From Actinomycetota bacterium (lineage in GTDB: Bacteria; Actinomycetota; Acidimicrobiia; IMCC26256; PALSA-610), in assembly GCA_003134555.1 (NCBI GenBank), contig PLBO01000127.1, forward strand, positions 6,503 to 39,353: a DNA stretch of 32,851 bases, written 5' to 3'. The notes beneath the pieces are model-generated. The model had not been told where the DNA came from. It saw only the letters and a program-made list of their open reading frames with translations, and made no database searches. Numbering within the stretch: the stretch's first letter is position 1; each line of letters starts with the position of its first letter. This document shows positions 258 to 17,978 of the stretch, piece by piece. A program made the translations under genes and the position numbers.

Positions 258-310
258 CTGCCGATCGGGCACTCGCTACGACGATCGAGATCGGGCATTC
301 TGGGTCCCGC
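258..310 (+). repeat. Dispersed repeat copy R1 (no gene start attached)
   Basis: This is the first of four related 52-54 bp segments. It begins CTGCCGATCGGGCACTCGC and carries a second GATCGGGCA about 27 bp downstream, followed by CATTCT. It matches R3 closely in the first half and R4 across CATCCCTGCCGATCGG. Unlike the other three copies, the position six bases after CATTCT is CGC rather than GTG, so no gene starts here. It lies between two convergent genes, perhaps left behind after loss of a downstream gene. Confidence 0.6.
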
Positions 311-328
311 GCCTCGGCAGCCGGTCCG

Positions 329-1042
329 CTATGCCGGCGCCGTCTTGGGCTCGGCGATCGGGCTCGATCTGAAGCCTTTCCATGCCGCGTAGATGCCGAG
401 TGACAGCTCCCAAGCGATCTCCGGAAGGGCCAACAGGCTCGCAGGTCCCGACCCGTTCTTGTAGGCACCGAACAGGATCAGCACGAAGGACAGGATCAGC
501 AGTGGGCCACCGATGAGACCCAACATGGCCATACGAGGAGGGACGAGGCCCGAGCGGTACATCAGGTAACCCAGTAGCAAGCCATTCCCGAAGCCCACAA
601 CGAGTCCGGGCCCGAACAGGAAGGCCCATTCGTAGGTATGCACTAGGGAGTTGCCTTGAATGGCGAGTGCTGTCGCTTGCACGCCTGTAGCTCCGGCCAG
701 CGCGTCGTTGACGCTCAGGACCGAGACGATGCTCATGAGGCCGATCGCGATGATGACCGACTCCATGACGCGAGCGGTGACGTATCCGAGCGCGTGGGTG
801 TGGCTCTGTCGCTTCACGAGCGGATAGATGACGACCGCAGTCGCGATGTTCGCGACGATCAGTCCGAATTCGAAGATCGCGCCCATCTGCAGGCTCGTGT
901 CGGAACCGGCCCCAGCGATGAAGTGCACATCGGTCCAGCTAGCTCCCAGTCCATGAACGAAGAGGAGTCGGGCGGGGATGCTGGTTATGAAGGTCCCGAT
1001 GAAGAACCAGCCGAAGATCCGTCCGGTTCTCCGAGTATCCAA
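329..1042 (-). CDS. DUF4386 family membrane protein
   Basis: This is a 237-residue integral membrane protein. The start R-R-T-G-R-I-F-G-W-F-F, followed by about six hydrophobic segments and the central V-M-E-S-V segment, fits DUF4386, a family with no established function. The start is TTG at 1042. It is chosen because AAGGAG sits 6 bases upstream on the minus strand (plus positions 1049-1054) and because the first residues match the usual family start. It stands alone and reads away from the RCC1 gene. The protein should sit in the cytoplasmic membrane; nothing suggests a substrate. Confidence 0.8.
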   Translation of the reverse strand: MDTRRTGRIFGWFFIGTFITSIPARLLFVHGLGASWTDVHFIAGAGSDTSLQMGAIFEFGLIVANIATAVVIYPLVKRQSHTHALGYVTARVMESVIIAIGLMSIVSVLSVNDALAGATGVQATALAIQGNSLVHTYEWAFLFGPGLVVGFGNGLLLGYLMYRSGLVPPRMAMLGLIGGPLLILSFVLILFGAYKNGSGPASLLALPEIAWELSLGIYAAWKGFRSSPIAEPKTAPA

Positions 1043-1288
1043 TGTCGTCTCCTTCGTTTGTGCAGTAGGTCTGACCTTGCGTAGAGAACCATGCCTCGAA
1101 GGACGCCACGAGCGTCAAGTTCACGCGCGTGCCGCGAGTTTCGCCGGCCGTCGGAATGAGCTTGCCCGGGGTGTCGGTGCACGAAGGTGAATCGCGGTTC
1201 GGCCTCTTGAGTCGACTCTTGTGGTGTCTCCGCGTTCGGAGTGGTATTTACCGGCACCTCTTGGGTTGTCCTGAGCGGGGGACCAGTC

Positions 1289-1702
1289 ATGGCACGTGTG
1301 GGAATGGCACGTGTCGGAATGACCTTGGTGTTGATGGCGGCTGCGCTGGTGGGCCAAATCGGTCCTGCGGGTGCGGCCGTGCATCGTGCGGGCTCTCGGG
1401 TGGTCAGGCCCTCGATCGCGGCAGGTGGTGGGCACTCGTGTTCGCTGTTGGCGAACGGGACCGTCAAATGTTGGGGCGACAACAGCAGCGGCGAGTTGGG
1501 GAATGGCACGACGACGAGGTCGTCGCCACCGGTTTTGGTGAGTGGCTTGACGACCGCGGTCGCGATGTCGGCGGCCTTCGGCCATTCGTGTGCGGTGTTG
1601 CCGAACGGGACCGCCAAATGCTGGGGCGACAACAGCTACGGCGAGTTGGGGAACGGCACCACGATCAACTCGTCGACACCGGTAGTGGTGAGTGGCATCT
1701 AG
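1289..1702 (+). CDS. Secreted RCC1-repeat protein, short two-repeat form
   Basis: The start ATG follows a G-rich ribosome-binding stretch. The first 33 residues are a signal peptide ending in A-G-A-A. Two RCC1-type repeats follow, each reading roughly A-x-G-H-S-C-x-L-x-N-G-T-x-K-C-W-G-D-N-S-x-G-E-L-G-N-G-T. They are also visible in the DNA as a 150 bp tandem repeat (first unit around 1429-1578, second 1579-1702). Secreted RCC1 proteins normally have six or seven blades that close a propeller. Here the frame hits TAG at the end of the second unit, so the 137-residue product cannot form a full propeller alone. It is probably a truncated relic, or it assembles as an oligomer. Confidence 0.7.
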   Translation: MARVGMARVGMTLVLMAAALVGQIGPAGAAVHRAGSRVVRPSIAAGGGHSCSLLANGTVKCWGDNSSGELGNGTTTRSSPPVLVSGLTTAVAMSAAFGHSCAVLPNGTAKCWGDNSYGELGNGTTINSSTPVVVSGI

Positions 1703-1851
1703 CCCGCGCGTTGAACGATCTGTGCGTCAGCACTAAGCGTCCCCGAGCGGGGAATCTGTGTGGGTGACCGGCTGGTGGGAAGAGCGCGGCGACGATCCAC
1801 CTGGCTTCGTCGAGTGGCTGCGGTCGATCACGTGGGGGGAGGCTGTGGTTG

Positions 1852-2675
1852 ATGAATGCTGATGATGAGTCTGATGTTGTCTTCGCGGGTTCGGTTCCGG
1901 AGATATATGAGCGTTACCTAATTCCGCTGATCTTCCAGACCTACGCGTCGGACCTGGCCGCCCGTGTCGAGTCACTCGCTTCGGGTTCGCTGCTGGAAGT
2001 GGCGGCTGGTACCGGCGTGGTCACGCGCGAGATGGCGGCTCGGCTGCCGGGCACGGTAAAGGTCACGGCCACCGATCTGAACCAGCCGATGCTCGACTTC
2101 GCAGCCGCCATCGGCACGACACGACCCGTCGTCTGGCAGCAGGCCGACGTCATGGATCTGCCGTTCGACGACGACTCGTTCGACGCTGCCGTGTGCCAGT
2201 TCGGGGTGATGTTCTTCCCGGACCGGCCCCGAGCGTTCGCCGAGATCTGTCGGGTGCTCCGTCCCGGTGGCATGTTCGTGTTCAACGTATGGGACCGTCT
2301 CGATGAGAACGAGTTCATGCAGAAGTCAGCGACGCGCTCGGCACTGTATTTCCCGACGATCCTCCTCTCTTCGCGGCGCGCGTCGCCTACGGCTACTACG
2401 ACGCGGCGATCATTCAGGCCGATCTCGCGGCGGGAGGTTTCGTATCCCGTGCAAGGGTCGAGGCGCTCGAGGCTCGCAGCCGAGCGAAAACCTGCCGTAT
2501 ACCCGCCATCGGGTTCTGCCAGGGAACACCGCTGCGCAACGCGATCGAGGCACGCGACCCTGCACGCCTGGAAGAAGCGACCTCGGCCGCGGCGACCGCA
2601 ATCGCTCAACGCTTCGGGCCAGCCGACATCGACGCCAAGATACGCGCCTACGTCATCACCGTCGACAAACCCTGA
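1852..2675 (+). pseudogene. Frameshifted class I SAM-dependent methyltransferase
   Basis: The start ATG at 1852 has GGGGGGAGG at 1834-1842. The first frame encodes a methyltransferase N-terminus: motif I L-E-V-A-A-G-T-G-V-V, then A-T-D-L-N-Q, D-V-M-D-L-P-F-D-D-D-S-F-D and L-R-P-G-G. At about 2320 the family-like sequence moves to another frame. From 2322 it reads E-V-S-D-A-L-G-T-V-F-P-D-D and continues through Y-G-Y-Y-D, A-G-G-F-V and C-Q-G-T-P-L-R-N to a TGA at 2673-2675. One missing base in the M-Q-E-V region explains this. The original frame stays open by chance into the next gene, which is not a real fusion. It is either a true pseudogene or a single-base assembly error. Confidence 0.75.
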
Positions 2676-2721
2676 CCGCCCTTCATGGGCACGGGATCTC
2701 GATGGCACCGTCACGCCAGAA

Positions 2722-2775
2722 CTGCTGATCGGGTACACGCCGCGCCGGCGCGATATCGGGCATTCTGTGCGCGTG
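2722..2775 (+). repeat. Dispersed repeat copy R2, ending on the VOC gene start
   Basis: This copy starts CTGCTGATCGGGTACACG and contains the downstream ATCGGGCATTCTG found in R1. CATTCT at 2761-2766 is followed by exactly six bases and then the GTG start of the VOC gene. This is the most diverged of the first three copies in its middle. The CATTCT box looks like an actinobacterial -10 element placed for a leaderless transcript. Confidence 0.55.
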
Positions 2776-3159
2776 ACTCACAACGCCGACCGTCTCGTAA
2801 CCGTCGTGTTCACGGTGTTGGACCTCGACCGTGCGGTGAAGCTCTACAACGATGCCTTCGGACTCGATTTCCACGTCGACGATCATCACGGCGATGACCC
2901 GTGGACGTCTGGCCGACATGCCGCCACCTCGTGGACTGACGGTGAGTACATGCACTTCGCCCTGTACGAGAGCAAGGATGGAACCTCGACACGCGGTGCG
3001 CAGATCGCGTTCCGGGTAGATGACCTCGACGCGGCGCACTCCCGCGCAATCGCGGCTGGTGCACGGGTGCTGCACGGCCCGAAGCGGCAGCCATGGGGAA
3101 CGTCGGCGCGATACCAAGATGCTGATGGCAACGTGATCGAACTGACTCAGCACGGCTGA
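2773..3159 (+). CDS. VOC (glyoxalase-fold) superfamily protein
   Basis: This is a 128-residue protein with the paired beta-alpha-beta-beta-beta layout of the VOC superfamily. It has an N-terminal strand and helix ending V-F-T-V-L-D-L-D-R-A-V-K-L-Y-N-D-A-F-G-L, a central A-F-R-V-D-D-L-D-A-A segment, and the closing D-A-D-G-N-V-I-E-L-T. That C-terminal glutamate is where many members bind metal. Substrate cannot be told; such proteins include lyases, dioxygenases and resistance proteins. The GTG start is set by the repeat boundary and the conserved start. The frame is open upstream because of the frameshifted methyltransferase, so automated callers may wrongly fuse the two. Confidence 0.8.
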   Translation: MTHNADRLVTVVFTVLDLDRAVKLYNDAFGLDFHVDDHHGDDPWTSGRHAATSWTDGEYMHFALYESKDGTSTRGAQIAFRVDDLDAAHSRAIAAGARVLHGPKRQPWGTSARYQDADGNVIELTQHG

Positions 3160-3179
3160 ACCGAACTGCGCCCACAGAT

Positions 3180-3233
3180 CTGCCTGATCGGGCACTCGCT
3201 ACGGCGACCGCGATCGGCCATGATTGGTGCGTG
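3180..3233 (+). repeat. Dispersed repeat copy R3, ending on the LPRTG gene start
   Basis: This copy reads CTGCCTGATCGGGCACTCGC, nearly identical to R1 over the first 30 bases, then GATCGGCCATGATTGG. CATGAT at 3219-3224 is followed by six bases and the GTG start at 3231. It begins 20 bases after the stop of the VOC gene. Confidence 0.6.
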
Positions 3234-3839
3234 CGGTTCCGTCTGCTGGTGGTCGCTGCACTCACCGCGGCCTGTTTCATCGCGAAACCTGATGTCGCGA
3301 AAGCGCAAGTGGAGTTGCCAGTCGTACGAATCAGTTCTACGACATCTCCCATATTGTTCATCGACAGCTGCGTAGCTCCGACTCGGGTAAGCGTGTCGTC
3401 TCGGGGTCGGTTCGTGCTGTCGCGAACCGGCGCGACCGACCAGAAGCTCACAGTGACCTATCACGTCACGGGCTCAGTCCAGCCGACCTCGGGCACGGCG
3501 GTCTTTTCCGTGGGATCGAGCACAGTCGATGTCGCGCTCGTGCCGCTCACGACTACAGCGTTGTTTGGCGGTCACGTCGACGTAGTCGCGCTCGACGGGT
3601 CCGGCTACAGCCTTGGCAGTCCGTCGCAGGTGAGCGTGCTCATCGGCTCCGTGGCCACGACGTGTACGACGCGCCCGACGTCCACGTCGACAGCCACGTC
3701 CACGTCGACGACCATCTTCGTTGCACCGAAGCAACTTCCGCGCACTGGTGGGGGCCACACCAGTGCGATGCTCCTCAGCGGTGTGTTCGTATTGCTGCTC
3801 GGCGCGACACTCGCGCTCGTTCGGAGAAGGCCCATCTAA
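3231..3839 (+). CDS. Cell-wall protein with LPRTG sortase sorting signal
   Basis: This 202-residue protein is built for export and anchoring. An N-terminal signal peptide (L-L-V-V-A-A-L-T-A-A-C, cleavage likely near A-K-A) is followed by an Ig-like beta-rich body and a low-complexity Thr/Ser linker (about residues 146-160, T-S-T-S-T-A-T-S-T-S-T-T). The sorting signal L-P-R-T-G-G, a hydrophobic segment and the tail R-R-R-P-I come last. This is the classical order for a sortase substrate linked to peptidoglycan. The body has no named domain that I recognise. No sortase gene is in the window. The GTG start lies six bases after the -10-like box of repeat R3. Confidence 0.8.
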   Translation: MRFRLLVVAALTAACFIAKPDVAKAQVELPVVRISSTTSPILFIDSCVAPTRVSVSSRGRFVLSRTGATDQKLTVTYHVTGSVQPTSGTAVFSVGSSTVDVALVPLTTTALFGGHVDVVALDGSGYSLGSPSQVSVLIGSVATTCTTRPTSTSTATSTSTTIFVAPKQLPRTGGGHTSAMLLSGVFVLLLGATLALVRRRPI

Positions 3840-3898
3840 CGCGGGCAGGCGGTCCGGGATCGTCCCCGGCGACCGGACGTACAGATACTGCGCCATCC

Positions 3899-3950
3899 CT
3901 GCCGATCGGCACTCGCCGAACAGGGCCAGACCAGGCAAGATCTGAGGGTG
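3899..3950 (+). repeat. Dispersed repeat copy R4, ending on the next gene start
   Basis: This copy shares CATCCCTGCCGATCGG and CACTCGC with R1 but has drifted in its second half. CAAGAT at 3936-3941 is followed by six bases and the GTG at 3948, so the box-to-start spacing of R2 and R3 is kept although the bases differ. Confidence 0.45.
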
Positions 3951-4205
3951 ACGCGACGGCACTCGTCCTATCCCTACGCCGGAGCCGACAGACACTCCGG
4001 TCCCTGGTATGAGCAGAGCGACGAGGCCGTGGTCCTGCAACCGGGCGATCGCTTCTTCATCCCATGCGAGGGCGGACCGTCCACGAGCCGACTCGAAGCC
4101 TTCCCGCCGCGGCTTGAAGTTGAGGAACACGACGGCGTGTACGTGCTCGTCGACGACGGCCCGCGCGACCAATGGCGCTACGTCTTCGTATCCAAGAAGC
4201 CCTGA
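3948..4205 (+). CDS. Small conserved-looking hypothetical protein
   Basis: This 85-residue acidic, soluble protein has no signal peptide. Recognisable stretches are L-Q-P-G-D-R-F-F-I-P-C-E-G-G-P, S-R-L-E-A-F-P-P, V-Y-V-L-V-D-D-G-P and Q-W-R-Y-V-F-V. They resemble a short actinobacterial hypothetical family, but I know no function for it. It begins with GTG six bases after the CAAGAT box of repeat R4, in the same arrangement as the two genes before it. It ends 70 bases before the convergent COG4705 gene. Confidence 0.65.
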   Translation: MTRRHSSYPYAGADRHSGPWYEQSDEAVVLQPGDRFFIPCEGGPSTSRLEAFPPRLEVEEHDGVYVLVDDGPRDQWRYVFVSKKP

Positions 4206-6594: not shown

Positions 6595-6669
6595 TGGAGG
6601 CGGCGGCGGGAATCGAACCCGCGTGAAAGGTTTTGCAGACCTCTGCCTGTGCCACTCGGCTACGCCGCC
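6595..6669 (-). tRNA. tRNA-Cys (GCA), CCA encoded
   Basis: The minus strand folds into a full cloverleaf. The acceptor arms GGCGGCG/CGCCGCC pair exactly. The D-stem is GCC/GGC. The anticodon stem GAGGU/ACCUU closes a seven-base loop CUGCAAA with anticodon GCA. The T-arm is GCGGG-UUCGAUU-CCCGC. A discriminator U and CCA follow at plus 6595-6598. The gene lies between the lipoprotein and the catabolic operon and is read away from the operon. Confidence 0.95.
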
Positions 6670-10655: not shown

Positions 10656-11020
10656 CAATCCGCATTCCGATCAAGTACTCGAAGGTGTGGTCCTGGCTGC
10701 TCACCGTCCTTTTGATGCCGCGGCGCTTCTCGTACATCGAGATCGACGGCGGCACCATCCGAGTGCGCATGTCTTACGCGTTCCGCGCCAACTTCACCCG
10801 CGACGACATCAGCGACGTCAGCACGCACCGGCCCATCGTCAGTATCGGCCTCCACGGATGGCGCGGGCGTTGGATCGTGAACGGCGCGAACCGGCCGATC
10901 GCCCGGATCACGTTGGCGCTCCCCATACGGGCACGCGTCGCGGGTGTCGGCGTGAGTGTCCGCGAGATTCTGGTGAGTGTCGACGACGTTGCCGAACTGC
11001 AACGCGCCCTCCTAACCTGA
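10652..11020 (+). CDS. Small protein of unknown function closing the thiolase operon
   Basis: This 122-residue protein has a basic, hydrophobic N-terminus (W-S-W-L-L-T-V-L-L-M-P-R-R-F) that may lie on or in the membrane. It then forms mostly beta strands: Y-I-E-I-D-G-G-T-I-R-V-R-M, R-G-R-W-I-V-N-G and I-L-V-S-V-D-D-V-A-E-L. The closing V-D-D-x-x-E-L helix and strand-rich body recall bacterial PH-like domains, but I cannot name a family with confidence. Its ATG overlaps the Nudix stop by 4 bases. Its own TGA lies inside the operator at 11017-11032. Confidence 0.6.
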   Translation: MTIRIPIKYSKVWSWLLTVLLMPRRFSYIEIDGGTIRVRMSYAFRANFTRDDISDVSTHRPIVSIGLHGWRGRWIVNGANRPIARITLALPIRARVAGVGVSVREILVSVDDVAELQRALLT

Positions 11021-13407: not shown

Positions 13408-14583
13408 GTGCAGCTCGCGTGGAGCCCCGAGGACGAGGCGTTTCGCTTAGACCTGATCGCCTTCCTCGACGAGAACACGCCGGAGCAGATGCGCACCGGC
13501 TACGACTTCCAAGACGTCGGCGACGAGCACGAGCTGGTCCCGCAGTGGTTGCGCGACTGGCAAGCGACCTTGTTCGACCACGGCTGGATGATCCCCGGCT
13601 ACCCGCCCGAACGCGGTGGTCGCAACTGCACGCCCGTGCAGACGCTCATCTACCTGGAGACGATGGCCGGCCGGCGCATGATCCGCAGCGGACACTTCCC
13701 CGGGTACGCGATCGTCGCCCCCAGCCTGCTCGAGTTCGGCAACGACGAGCAGAAGCGGCTGGTTCCCGCGGCGATCCGCGGCGACACGATCTGGTGCATC
13801 GGGATGAGCGAGCCCAACGCGGGCTCCGATCTCGCGGGCCTTTCGACGCGCGCCGAACTGCGCGACGACCACTTCGTCGTGAACGGCCAGAAGGTCTGGA
13901 CGAGCTACGCGATGATCGCCCAGAAGTGCTTCTGCTACGTGCGCACCGATCCGACGTTGCCGAAGCACAAGGGCATCTCGCTGCTCATCATCGACGTCGA
14001 TTCACCCGGCATCGACATCCGCCCGCTGCGCCACATCAGCGGCACCGCGGGGTTCGCGGAGGTGTTCTTCACCGACGTGATCGTTCCCCGCGAGAACCTC
14101 GTCGGCGGATTGAACGGCGGCTGGGCAATCACGCAGGGATCGCTCGCGCACGAGCGCGCCGGACTTTGGGTCGAAGGCGTGGCGCGCTTCGAACAGACCA
14201 TCGAAGGACTCGTCAAGCTCGCACGTGAACAGGGTCGCGCCGGCGATCCGATCATCCGCCGGAAGATCGCTTCCGCCTACGAGCTGGCCGCGTCGTTGCG
14301 CGCGCTCGGCTACAAGGGCTTCGCGTCGTTCGCGCAGGGATCGAGCGCGCCGGAGCACAGCTACATGAAGATGGCGATGTCGGAGGCGGGCAAAGCGGCG
14401 TTCGAGCTCGGCATGGAGATCTCCGGACCGCTCGCGCCCGTCACCGATCCCGAGCTCGGCGCGTCGACGAACCGATTCGTGCACGGGTTCTTCATGTCGT
14501 TCGCAAACACGATCGCGGGCGGGAGCTCGGAGATCCAACGCAACATCATCGCCCAGCGCGTGCTCGGCCTCCCGAGGCGATGA
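13408..14583 (+). CDS. Acyl-CoA dehydrogenase, large subunit (FadE29-like)
   Basis: This 391-residue acyl-CoA dehydrogenase should use FAD to form the alpha-beta double bond. It shows W-C-I-G-M-S-E-P-N-A-G-S-D-L-A-G-L, W-T-S-Y-A for the flavin and middle domain, H-E-R-A-G-L, and the C-terminal S-S-E-I-Q-R-N-I-I-A-Q-R-V-L-G. At the place where many family members have the catalytic glutamate (Y-E-G-T), this protein reads A-G-G-S, so it probably cannot act alone. GTG at 13408 has GGAGGA at 13395-13400. The next gene encodes a shorter dehydrogenase, and the two probably form a mixed tetramer as FadE28-FadE29 (ChsE1-ChsE2) do in mycobacteria. Confidence 0.85.
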   Translation: MQLAWSPEDEAFRLDLIAFLDENTPEQMRTGYDFQDVGDEHELVPQWLRDWQATLFDHGWMIPGYPPERGGRNCTPVQTLIYLETMAGRRMIRSGHFPGYAIVAPSLLEFGNDEQKRLVPAAIRGDTIWCIGMSEPNAGSDLAGLSTRAELRDDHFVVNGQKVWTSYAMIAQKCFCYVRTDPTLPKHKGISLLIIDVDSPGIDIRPLRHISGTAGFAEVFFTDVIVPRENLVGGLNGGWAITQGSLAHERAGLWVEGVARFEQTIEGLVKLAREQGRAGDPIIRRKIASAYELAASLRALGYKGFASFAQGSSAPEHSYMKMAMSEAGKAAFELGMEISGPLAPVTDPELGASTNRFVHGFFMSFANTIAGGSSEIQRNIIAQRVLGLPRR

Positions 14584-14596
14584 GGCACCGGAACCC

Positions 14597-15529
14597 GTGG
14601 ACTTCTCGCTGACCCCCGACCAGGAGCTCTTGCGCGACACCGGTCGCAAGCTGCTCGAGCGCGAGTGCCCGCCCGCGCTCGTGCGCGCGCACATCGACGA
14701 TCCGTCCGCCTACGAGCCCCTGTGGCGGCATTTGTCGGAGTACACCGCGCTCGGCGCGGGCCCGGCGGCCGACCTCTGCCTGTTCCTCGAGGAGACCGGC
14801 TACGCGGCTGCGCCCGGACCTTTTCTCGCGACGACGGCGTACACGGCGCTGACGGGTGATGCCGTCACGACGGGGACTGTCGCGCTCGTCGACGATCCGA
14901 CACTCCTCTTCGTGCTCGAGGCCGAACGCGTCGATCGCATCGCCGTCGTGCTGCCCGGGCCCCGGCTCGCGGTCGTCGACGCAACCGATCTGCCCGTGCA
15001 TTTCGTCGCGACCGTCGACTTCTCCCGGCGTCTGTTCACGATCGATCTTCCGCATCTCGACGCCCAACCGCTGGACGCCGAGATGTACGCGCACTGGCGC
15101 GAACGGGCCTACGCGTGCATGGCGGCCGAGATGGTCGGGACCGCGCGTCGCATCTTCGACATGACGTTGGCGTACGCGAAGGAGCGCAAGCAGTTCGACG
15201 TGCCGATCGGTTCGTTTCAAGCGATCCAGCACAAGCTCGCCGACATGTCGCTCGTGCTCGAGCGCGCGACAGCTGCAGTGCACTACGCCGCGATGACGAT
15301 CGACGGAAACGACCCCGATCGCACGCGCGCCTGCCACGTGGCCAAGGCCTCGGCCGGCGAGGCCGCGCGCCGGATCCTCAAGGATGGAATCCAGATCCAC
15401 GGTGGCATCGGCTACACGTGGGAACACGATCTGCATCTCTACCTACGACGCGCGACCGCCGACGAGTACCTCTTCGGCACAACCGGCTGGCACCTCGACC
15501 GCCTCGCGGAACTACTCATCGATACCTAA
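14597..15529 (+). CDS. Acyl-CoA dehydrogenase, short subunit (FadE28-like)
   Basis: This protein has 310 residues, about 70 fewer than a normal acyl-CoA dehydrogenase. The N-terminal helical domain (F-S-L-T-P-D-Q-E-L-L-R-D) and the C-terminal bundle (R-K-Q-F-D-V-P-I-G-S-F-Q-A-I-Q-H-K-L-A-D-M, I-Q-I-H-G-G-I-G-Y-T-W-E-H-D) are kept, while the middle beta domain is reduced. The glutamate in T-W-E-H-D is a candidate catalytic base that the large subunit lacks. The reduced middle domain means flavin contacts must come from its partner. It starts with GTG 13 bases after the large-subunit stop. It is almost certainly the second half of a heteromeric enzyme for bulky acyl-CoA. Confidence 0.85.
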   Translation: MDFSLTPDQELLRDTGRKLLERECPPALVRAHIDDPSAYEPLWRHLSEYTALGAGPAADLCLFLEETGYAAAPGPFLATTAYTALTGDAVTTGTVALVDDPTLLFVLEAERVDRIAVVLPGPRLAVVDATDLPVHFVATVDFSRRLFTIDLPHLDAQPLDAEMYAHWRERAYACMAAEMVGTARRIFDMTLAYAKERKQFDVPIGSFQAIQHKLADMSLVLERATAAVHYAAMTIDGNDPDRTRACHVAKASAGEAARRILKDGIQIHGGIGYTWEHDLHLYLRRATADEYLFGTTGWHLDRLAELLIDT

Positions 15530-15604
15530 GCGTTCTACGTCCGCATAAACCCGCACGCGTTCGCGACGACATTCGCACGCGCGACGACGGCATATGGTCA
15601 GCGC

Positions 15605-16054
15605 ATGGGAATCGCGGGTCGGCACATCGAAGCACCCGACCTGATCGTGACGGTCTGGGACGGCTCGGTCACCGCGGCCGAGTGGGCTGACACCGTGCAG
15701 AATCAGGTTGCCTACCGGAGCAACTCGAAGAGCATGCGGCGGCTGACCGACGCGCGGACCGCCGACTCGTCGAACATCACCGAAGACGACGTGGCGGCGA
15801 TATCAGCCAGCTATGCGCGCTCCGGTGTACCGCTGTCGGGCGTGAAGTTGGCCATCGTCGCCAACGAGGGTTGGGCGACCGCGCAACAAGTGGAAACGAG
15901 CTTGAGCAATCTCGGTGTCACAACGGTGGTGTTCAGCGATGCGCACACAGCGTGCGTATGGCTCGGCGTCGATCCCGCGGTGGTGGTTGCCACCATCAAC
16001 GACCTCCGCAGAGAATTGCGGAGTCCGGTTCGCGACGGAGAGCCGCTCAAATAG
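15605..16054 (+). CDS. Small STAS/SpoIIAA-like protein
   Basis: This 149-residue soluble protein has a start and layout like SpoIIAA/STAS-type domains: a first strand I-V-T-V-W-D-G-S-V-T, a helix with A-E-W-A-D-T-V, a strand before T-D-A-R, then K-L-A-I-V-A-N-E-G and V-T-T-V-V-F-S-D-A-H-T-A-C-V-W-L-G. I see no kinase or DNA-binding motif. The phosphorylatable serine of true anti-anti-sigma factors is not obvious, so a regulatory role is only a possibility. TATGGT at 15593-15598 stands six bases before the ATG with no ribosome-binding site, a leaderless-looking start. It is an isolated gene between two catabolic operons. Confidence 0.6.
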   Translation: MGIAGRHIEAPDLIVTVWDGSVTAAEWADTVQNQVAYRSNSKSMRRLTDARTADSSNITEDDVAAISASYARSGVPLSGVKLAIVANEGWATAQQVETSLSNLGVTTVVFSDAHTACVWLGVDPAVVVATINDLRRELRSPVRDGEPLK

Positions 16055-16112
16055 AACCGGGGTCGTGCTCCCCCTTGGTCCCGCCCGGAGGCGAGGTCTA
16101 CACTTCTCTTCC

Positions 16113-16128
16113 CTGACGTCTGCGTCAG
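16113..16128. promoter_or_regulatory. Operator copy 3 (CTGACG-N4-CGTCAG) before hyuB
   Basis: CTGACGTCTGCGTCAG has perfect six-base arms. A TACACT box at 16099-16104 lies eight bases upstream, so the element covers the likely transcription start, as at 13338-13355. A strong ribosome-binding site (AGGAGGGA, 16133-16140) follows, then ATG at 16146. Confidence 0.65.
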
Positions 16129-16145
16129 TTTTAGGAGGGAAGCCG

Positions 16146-17978
16146 ATGACGAACGTCGACCTGGTGCGACTCGCCGGAAGTCGCGGCCGTATCTCCGAAA
16201 CACCGACCGTCGACCTCGTGACGGCCGAGGTCATCCGCGGCGGCATGGAGACGGTCTGCTTCGAGATGGCCGAGTACGTCTCGCGTACCGCCACCACGCC
16301 GATCCTCAACCAGTCGAACGAACGCAACGCGACCGTGCTCGACGCGCGGGGCCGGCTCGCAGCACTTTCGGTCGGCATTCCGCAGTTCATGCTCACCTCG
16401 ACATTGCCCGTGCGCTTCGCGCTCGAGTTTCTCGGTGCCGACGAGTTCCGCGAAGGCGACGTGTTCGTCGCCAACGACCCGTACCACGGCGGCGGTCACC
16501 TCCCCGATTACAACGTGTTCGCGCCGGTGTTCGCAGCTGATCCCGCGGCTCCCGGCGGGCGCCGCATGGTGTTGATCGCCAGCATCCAGTGCCACCACGG
16601 CGACACCGGAGGCGGCGTCCCCGGCGGCTACAACATCACCGCCAACGACATCTGGGGCGAAGGCGTGCGGTGGCCGGTCGTGAAGGTCCTCGACCGAGGA
16701 GTCGAACGGCGCGACGTGCTGTACGCGTTGCAGGCCAACAATCGCATCCCCAGCTACATCGGCGACCTGCATGCGCAGATCGGTTCCGCGCAGCTCGGCG
16801 CCCAGCGGCTCGGGGAGCTCATCGACCGCTACAGCGTCGGGGCGATCGAGGAATCCGTCGACTACATGATCGACTACGCGGCCCGGCGCTTCCGCGAGGA
16901 GGTCGCGCAGTGGCCCGACGGCGAGTACGAAGCCGACGCGTATGTCGACCACGACCCGCTGGGCAACCCCGACATTCATCTGCACGTGAAGGTCACGGTC
17001 GCCGGCGACGAGCTGACCATCGACTTCACGGGCACCGACACGCGCAACGAGCTGCAATCGTGGTCGACCTTCGGCAATACGCGCGGATACACCGTCGGCC
17101 AGATCGCGGCGATGATGGATCCCGAGATCCCGAAGAACGAGGGGTTCTTCGAGCAGATCAAGCTGATCGTGCCCAAGGGCTGCCTCCTCAACCCGGAGCC
17201 GGGCAAGCCGGTGTCGGCGGGAACTCACCATCCGGGCGCCGACGTGGGCGAGGTCATCGCCAAGGCGATGCAGTACGTGCTGCCCGACCGCGCCGTACCC
17301 CAGACGTACAAGACCGGCATCCCGACGATCATCGTGGGCGTCGACCCGCGCACGGGCGCGTCGTTCACCGATCACTCGGCCGAGGTGTACTCGGGTTGGT
17401 GCAACGCTTCCAAGGGCATGGACGCCTGGGGCGCGCTCAATGCCAGCTTCGGCAACTTGTGGAAAGCAACGGCGGAGATCAACGAGTCGCTCTATCCGCA
17501 CGTGCAGTGGAGCCGCGACTACCGCACCGACGGCGGCGGTCCCGGTGAATGGCGCGGCATCTGCGGCTCTCACTACGAGAAGGAAGTCCGCGTCGACGCC
17601 AAGGTGTACACGTACGTCGTCGGCATGAAGTATCCGATGCCGGGGATCTGTGGCGGCATGGACGGCTCGCCGAACGAGATGATCATCCGCTACGGCAGCG
17701 ACGACGAGTTCAAGGTGCGACACACCGCCGACTGGGTGCCGATCCACGCCGGCGAACGCATCATGTACGACTACGGCGGTGGCGGTGGTTGGGGCGATCC
17801 CCTCGTGCGCGATCCGCAAGCCGTGCTCGACGACGTGCTCGACGAGTACGTCTCAGTCGTTGGTGCGAGCCGCGACTACGGCGTCGTCCTGGAAGGCTCG
17901 CTCGAAGAGCTGACGCTCGAGGTCGACGAGGTCGGGACGCACGCGTTGCGCGAACGGATGCGGGCCGAACGAGCCTGA
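16146..17978 (+). CDS. hyuB: Hydantoinase B / acetone-carboxylase alpha-like subunit
   Basis: This 610-residue protein belongs to the HyuB family (N-methylhydantoinase B, 5-oxoprolinase C-terminal part, acetone and acetophenone carboxylase subunits). Visible signatures are D-P-Y-H-G-G-G-H-L-P-D with likely metal-binding His and Asp, H-H-G-D-T-G-G-G-V-P-G-G, the later F-T-G-T-D and the C-terminal G-G-G-G-W-G-D-P. The family needs an HyuA partner and ATP to open cyclic amides or carboxylate ketones. The acidic start D-L-V-R-L after ATG 16146 is well placed behind AGGAGGGA. The hyuA gene follows after one base. Which reaction this pair performs cannot be read from sequence. Confidence 0.88.
   Translation: MTNVDLVRLAGSRGRISETPTVDLVTAEVIRGGMETVCFEMAEYVSRTATTPILNQSNERNATVLDARGRLAALSVGIPQFMLTSTLPVRFALEFLGADEFREGDVFVANDPYHGGGHLPDYNVFAPVFAADPAAPGGRRMVLIASIQCHHGDTGGGVPGGYNITANDIWGEGVRWPVVKVLDRGVERRDVLYALQANNRIPSYIGDLHAQIGSAQLGAQRLGELIDRYSVGAIEESVDYMIDYAARRFREEVAQWPDGEYEADAYVDHDPLGNPDIHLHVKVTVAGDELTIDFTGTDTRNELQSWSTFGNTRGYTVGQIAAMMDPEIPKNEGFFEQIKLIVPKGCLLNPEPGKPVSAGTHHPGADVGEVIAKAMQYVLPDRAVPQTYKTGIPTIIVGVDPRTGASFTDHSAEVYSGWCNASKGMDAWGALNASFGNLWKATAEINESLYPHVQWSRDYRTDGGGPGEWRGICGSHYEKEVRVDAKVYTYVVGMKYPMPGICGGMDGSPNEMIIRYGSDDEFKVRHTADWVPIHAGERIMYDYGGGGGWGDPLVRDPQAVLDDVLDEYVSVVGASRDYGVVLEGSLEELTLEVDEVGTHALRERMRAERA

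Follow-up and report, generated by a model that had tools for sequence, protein, structure and literature searches.

The window, a 32,851-nucleotide stretch of DNA (C148:6503-39353) from a genome of 4.63 Mb in 154 contigs (G000), raises the question of what a short repeat in front of several unrelated genes is for. The first-pass annotation had described this repeat as a 52-54 bp element and had read the locus as a cassette array in which each gene carries a portable promoter. Our analysis favours, with a probability of roughly 0.74, the reading that the repeat acts as the recombination site in an integron-like but distinct cassette system, which would be served by an Xer-like recombinase encoded in the arrays.

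The repeat, its copies and the genes that follow

All four repeat copies reported earlier (258-310, 2722-2775, 3180-3233 and 3899-3950) are present at these positions, and the left-arm sequence CTGCC or CTGCT falls exactly on their starts at 258, 2722, 3180 and 3899. The element is real, but its size is about 57 nt: it extends ~8 nt further left (CGCCATAA), and its right end lies at about GTGCGC. Two occurrences of GATCGGGCA per repeat are confirmed, at a distance of 26-27 nt, and the 22-nt left half has no chance matches in shuffled sequence. Site 1 occupies positions 250-307 on the plus strand (left arm at 250-262, core, right arm GGGCA to 297, and box CATTCT) and corresponds to a covariance-model match of 59.7 bits at C148:6752-6809. 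This copy has the -10-like box but no start codon, in agreement with the earlier description, because the next gene, encoding a DUF4386 membrane protein (329-1042), lies on the minus strand. Site 2 (2714-2772, 61.6 bits), site 3 (3172-3230, 49.4 bits) and site 4 (3891-3947, 54.8 bits), all on the plus strand, contain the boxes CATTCT, CATGAT and CAAGAT, respectively, and the reported spacing of six bases to a GTG codon is exact for the plus-strand genes at 2773, 3231 and 3948. These genes encode a glyoxalase/VOC-family protein (2773-3159), a secreted protein with an LPXTG-like C-terminal anchor (3231-3839) and a small protein without a Pfam match (3948-4205). The cargo of the window further comprises an RCC1-repeat ORF (1241-1702, plus strand) and a SAM-dependent methyltransferase gene (1849-2674, plus strand) that is frameshifted after about 2445. 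A half-site (AAGCGTCCCCGAGCGGGGAATCTG; 1734-1770, plus strand; C148:8236-8272, 17.7 bits) resembles the sites that flank the recombinase, and a weak, degenerate site is located near the end of the array in C148 (5131-5187, plus strand, 18.8 bits). The short RCC1-repeat ORF resembles the long RCC1-like repeat arrays of contigs C28 and C135. A tRNA gene (6598-6669, minus strand) is found about 1.4 kb past the end of the window's array, and the array may belong to a tRNA-associated island.

The pattern of two GATCGGGCA motifs occurs 10 times genome-wide, compared with 0 for the reversed control. Iterated profile searches of a first set of contigs yielded about 90 copies with the consensus CGCCATAACTGCCGATCGG(G)CACTCGC-N13-GATCGGGCA(A/T)T(A/C)TGTGCGCGTG. 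A covariance model (R1) built on 44 sites matched 94 copies in the genome at E≤0.01, nearly all of them on contigs with at least two. The copies are mostly arranged in same-strand runs on small contigs, ~0.8 kb apart (median spacing 798 nt), and the longest runs reach about 15 sites. Three genus-mates (G001-G003) contain 15, 23 and 46 covariance-model matches, and a genome from another family (G014) contains 5. Any match was obtained in only ten of the 100 genomes searched, G000 itself counted, and arrays of sites are missing from most relatives searched; all assemblies are fragmented. Long site variants of about 150-165 bp have ends identical to those of the ~57-bp sites, and no Rfam family matches the site. 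A seemingly divergent site pair on contig C344 of G003 turned out to be one long palindromic site. Separately, a 157-nt near-perfect hairpin with site-like ends (L181 2819-2975 and L040 18937-19094; 88% identity between two species of the genus) may represent either a MITE or an extended form of the site.

Each copy forms an imperfect palindrome of about 57 bp, and the earlier remark that no attC-like site is visible thus does not hold genome-wide, since the repeat itself has this form. Folding of the full site is more favourable than that of mononucleotide shuffles (mean z -1.66), with single sites near dinucleotide shuffles, and the drawn pairing leaves C/G positions unpaired. No covariation was found in the palindrome; pairing of the outer arms, be it inside one site or across the two ends of a unit, was also considered and rejected, as it showed none. 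The palindrome is a fact of sequence, and its action as a folded single strand is putative.

The position of the sites relative to start codons was tabulated for 134 sites of G000-G003, using open frames of at least 60 codons. Forty of these sites have an open frame starting 10 nt past GGGCA and 15 have one at 11 nt, compared with about 4 at each other offset, so that a frame begins 6-7 nt after the CAWTMT box at 55 of the 134 sites. In 534 kb of G000 outside the arrays (C83, C6 and others), candidate starts are preceded by TANNNT more often at gaps of 6, 7 and 8 nt (18, 13 and 8 occurrences, respectively) than at most other gaps (about 1-2). These peaks are a sign of leaderless promoters and suggest that many transcripts of this genome lack a leader. 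The 6-7 nt between site box and start codon equals the genome's own TANNNT leaderless spacing. The site box begins with CA rather than TA, and CANNNT shows no clear peak 6-7 nt before other genes in the same 534 kb. The portable promoter proposed by the first-pass annotation is plausible: the box of this putative promoter has the leaderless spacing and apparently moves with the downstream gene, although it begins with CA.

A tyrosine recombinase within the arrays

The genome contains thirteen tyrosine recombinase matches, one of which, an Xer-like gene at C128:7699-8613, sits within arrays that extend from it in both directions. Contig C65 carries a frameshifted copy, and the homologous recombinase block of C65 and C128 ends at sites. 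The statement that no integrase is visible therefore fails at the level of the genome; the gene had been missed because it lies on other array contigs. The catalytic residues R157, K183/K186, H246, R249, H272 and Y281 are invariant or nearly so in the recombinase alignment. The protein scores 131 bits with the XerD model (cut-off 329.6) and 68 bits with the IntI model TIGR02249 (cut-off 265). The closest structures to its structure model, which is of moderate quality (pLDDT 73), are XerD (1a0p), Brujita integrase (5vfz) and archaeal Xer (4a8e). An extra α-helix, I2, has been described in the catalytic domain of IntI (PMC7790495, PMC8138268). No I2-type extra helix is observed between H194-204 and H223-236 of the recombinase model, where pLDDT is about 80-90, and no I2-type insertion is found in the alignment.

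Relatives of the recombinase were collected from 71 loci, mostly of Acidimicrobiia and other Actinomycetota MAGs; plasmid records contain distant relatives only (≤46% identity). When the two flanks of the gene were compared for inverted matches, the best one was an outward-facing pair of sites (57 to 27 nt long, 82-94% identical) in C65, C128, G014, L078, L081 and L089. The sites of these pairs end in CGGGCAWT or close to it, and their sequence is lineage-specific. Shorter outward pairs flank the recombinase in L080 and L128, and every outward-pair row falls into one supported clade of a tree that was built without L128. In G014 and in the KLAP8 MAG, the recombinase likewise lies between a pair of outward-facing sites, from which arrays extend in either direction, and G100 (L078), G105 and G106 contain same-strand site series with the same left arm.

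The cassettes could be real and another recombinase their enzyme, the in-array XerD-like gene being only cargo. The thirteen tyrosine recombinase matches leave room for such an enzyme, and the C128-type gene was not recovered from G001-G003, which do contain arrays, perhaps because these assemblies are only 74-88% complete. A different integrase of the Phage_int_SAM_3 type also adjoins array sites at the end of C137 (L053 12437-13336). We nevertheless regard this explanation as unlikely, given that C128-type genes are accompanied by outward inverted site pairs in distant genomes, with a site sequence particular to each lineage, and that gene and sites co-occur in G014.

Some array orientation switches occur without a recombinase. 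Near the KLAP8 array, L078 contains a tandem pair of tyrosine recombinase genes as well as a large relaxase-like gene (484-2735 and 14299-17835), which suggests a mobilizable element. In a sister group of recombinases, palindromic sites of another kind (GCACAGAACTGCCGG...TCGATAACGTGC) lie directly downstream of the gene in L086, L087, L101 and L135, those of L086 being at 10952 and 11793, 841 bp apart; these are possibly further cassette systems.

Gene units and the position of their ends

Comparison of the array contigs revealed single-gene blocks of 70-100% identity that recur in otherwise unrelated contexts. Of the 79 ends of such blocks, 44 are no more than 60 nt away from a GGGCA site anchor, versus 17.6% for random positions. 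Among the most similar pairs, identity on the 3′ side extends as far as ..CATAACTGCCGATC and no further, and the downstream core differs. This stop is observed for C109/C8 (100% identity), C37/C128 (99.7%), C123/C142 (98.5%), C104/C137 (92% over the stretch) and C109/C287 of G003 (90%). The 3′ ends of units fall at the left arm (AWC/TGCC), and a unit does not include the core of the site that follows it, because the identity ends at ..CATAACTGCCGATC. The upstream core is common to C37/C128, to C287 of G003 and C123, and to C148 and C529 of G001. The last of these pairs involves the first unit of the window (DUF4386 gene and site core; 93% identity, core identity 0.89). The upstream core is shared in part between C148 and C655 of G002 and is not shared between C109 and C287 of G003. 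Some 5′ boundaries are located at the right arm (C109/C287 of G003 and C309/C43). Core similarity in ten core pairs (n=5 each) did not separate travel with the upstream gene from travel with the downstream gene. Because the 3′ ends of units lie at the left arm, the site core and box most likely travel with the downstream gene, which is in line with the portable element originally proposed. The cassette-array reading itself is well supported, in that single-gene units recur in unrelated contexts with their ends at the site; in the synteny comparison that had been suggested, blocks of 90-100% identity break at the site across arrays and species.

Arrays other than that of the window contain acetyltransferase-, nucleotidyltransferase-, HAD-, DinB-, P450- and serine beta-lactamase-like proteins, recognised by reading translations. 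The largest ORF is antisense in about one-third of the units, partly owing to high GC.

The same breaks bear on the possibility that the repeat is a dispersed intergenic element, either REP/MITE-like or a promoter or terminator repeat, whose copies are joined by ordinary homologous recombination. A short palindrome between genes, a variable centre that is swapped independently of the genes and the presence of some weak or partial copies would all suit such an element. However, the breaks cluster at one arm even though the flanks, otherwise unrelated, have only about 10-20 nt in common at that point, the sites occur in long same-strand runs, and a recombinase with inverted flanking sites is kept across lineages, which together make a dispersed element quite improbable.

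In the preferred reading of a cassette system with its own recombinase, the enzyme would insert or remove circular units composed of site core, right arm and gene, cutting at the left arm (about CAKAWC^TGCC). With a unit of this composition, each captured gene would bring its own -10-like box CAWTMT, 6-7 nt before its start codon, and could be transcribed from its own site as a leaderless mRNA instead of from a common promoter of the array. That units move, that the enzyme is active and that the sites act as promoters are predictions. We propose more tentatively, and at somewhat less than even odds, that the system is an independently evolved analogue of the integron. Such an analogue would combine an Xer-derived recombinase lacking the I2 helix with a pair of divergent arrays and with site-first cassettes in which the recombination site also serves as a leaderless promoter, so that every captured gene would be expressed whatever its place in the array.

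Comparison with integrons and Xer-type systems

The arrays resemble integrons in their tandem, same-direction arrangement of single unrelated genes between imperfect palindromic sites whose length varies (here from 57 to about 165 bp). A tyrosine recombinase gene beside the array start and varied single-gene cassettes in one orientation are common to both, and the attI-like site next to the integrase has a counterpart in the specific sites that flank the recombinase, here as an outward pair. Unlike in integrons, the recombinase is Xer-like, far under the cut-off of the IntI model and without the I2 helix, and arrays lie on either side of it, between two inverted sites. The right arm lacks G^TTRRRY, and an A precedes the right-arm WT in 43 of 44 sites; the left arms, CAKAWC, fit RYYYAAC (R″) only in part. 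Whereas an integron cassette carries its entire attC along at the 3′ end, the core here is apparently at the 5′ end of the gene, and each unit has its own putative promoter. A true integron or attC cluster, with ordinary cassettes, an unusual attC and a conventional IntI acting from elsewhere, would account for the array logic, the palindromic sites with unpaired bases, the typical cassette cargo and the likeness of left arm CATAAC to RYYYAAC, but is also improbable. No protein of the genome reaches the IntI cut-off (best 70.6 versus 265 bits), GTTRRRY is at the right arm of no site, the identity of shared units ends at the left arm without taking in the downstream core, and for Actinobacteria the IntegronFinder 2.0 survey (PMC9024848) recorded a single In0 and few CALIN but no complete integron.

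Similarities to systems based on simple tyrosine recombinases are also observed. XerD, XerA and Brujita integrase share the fold and catalytic residues of the array recombinase, but their target is a dif or phage att site and not a cassette array. In the Xer/dif (pdif) modules of Acinetobacter plasmids, genes are likewise mobilised between short sites by Xer-type simple tyrosine recombinases. The pdif sites are 28 bp long and are used by the chromosomal XerC/XerD, whereas the sites described here are palindromes of at least 57 bp with a dedicated recombinase within the array. Movement of genes as units between short sites by such recombinases is described in PMC7399989. No report of the present system was found in the open-access PMC literature searched for integrons in Acidimicrobiia or Actinobacteria and for integron-like arrays. 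As a whole, the system would work like an integron yet lacks several of the defining features tested, namely IntI, the I2 helix, the R′ box and an attC that travels at the 3′ end.

Integrons are the classic platforms of gene capture, and complete ones have been reported to be absent from Actinobacteria (PMC9024848). A second cassette system with machinery of its own would be a test of whether cassette shuffling needs the I2 helix and single-strand attC recombination. It would show another way of expressing captured genes, with a promoter at each site instead of one promoter for the array, and would open an unseen pool of mobile genes whose cargo, judged from the translations, includes acetyltransferase-, nucleotidyltransferase-, serine beta-lactamase- and VOC-like proteins.
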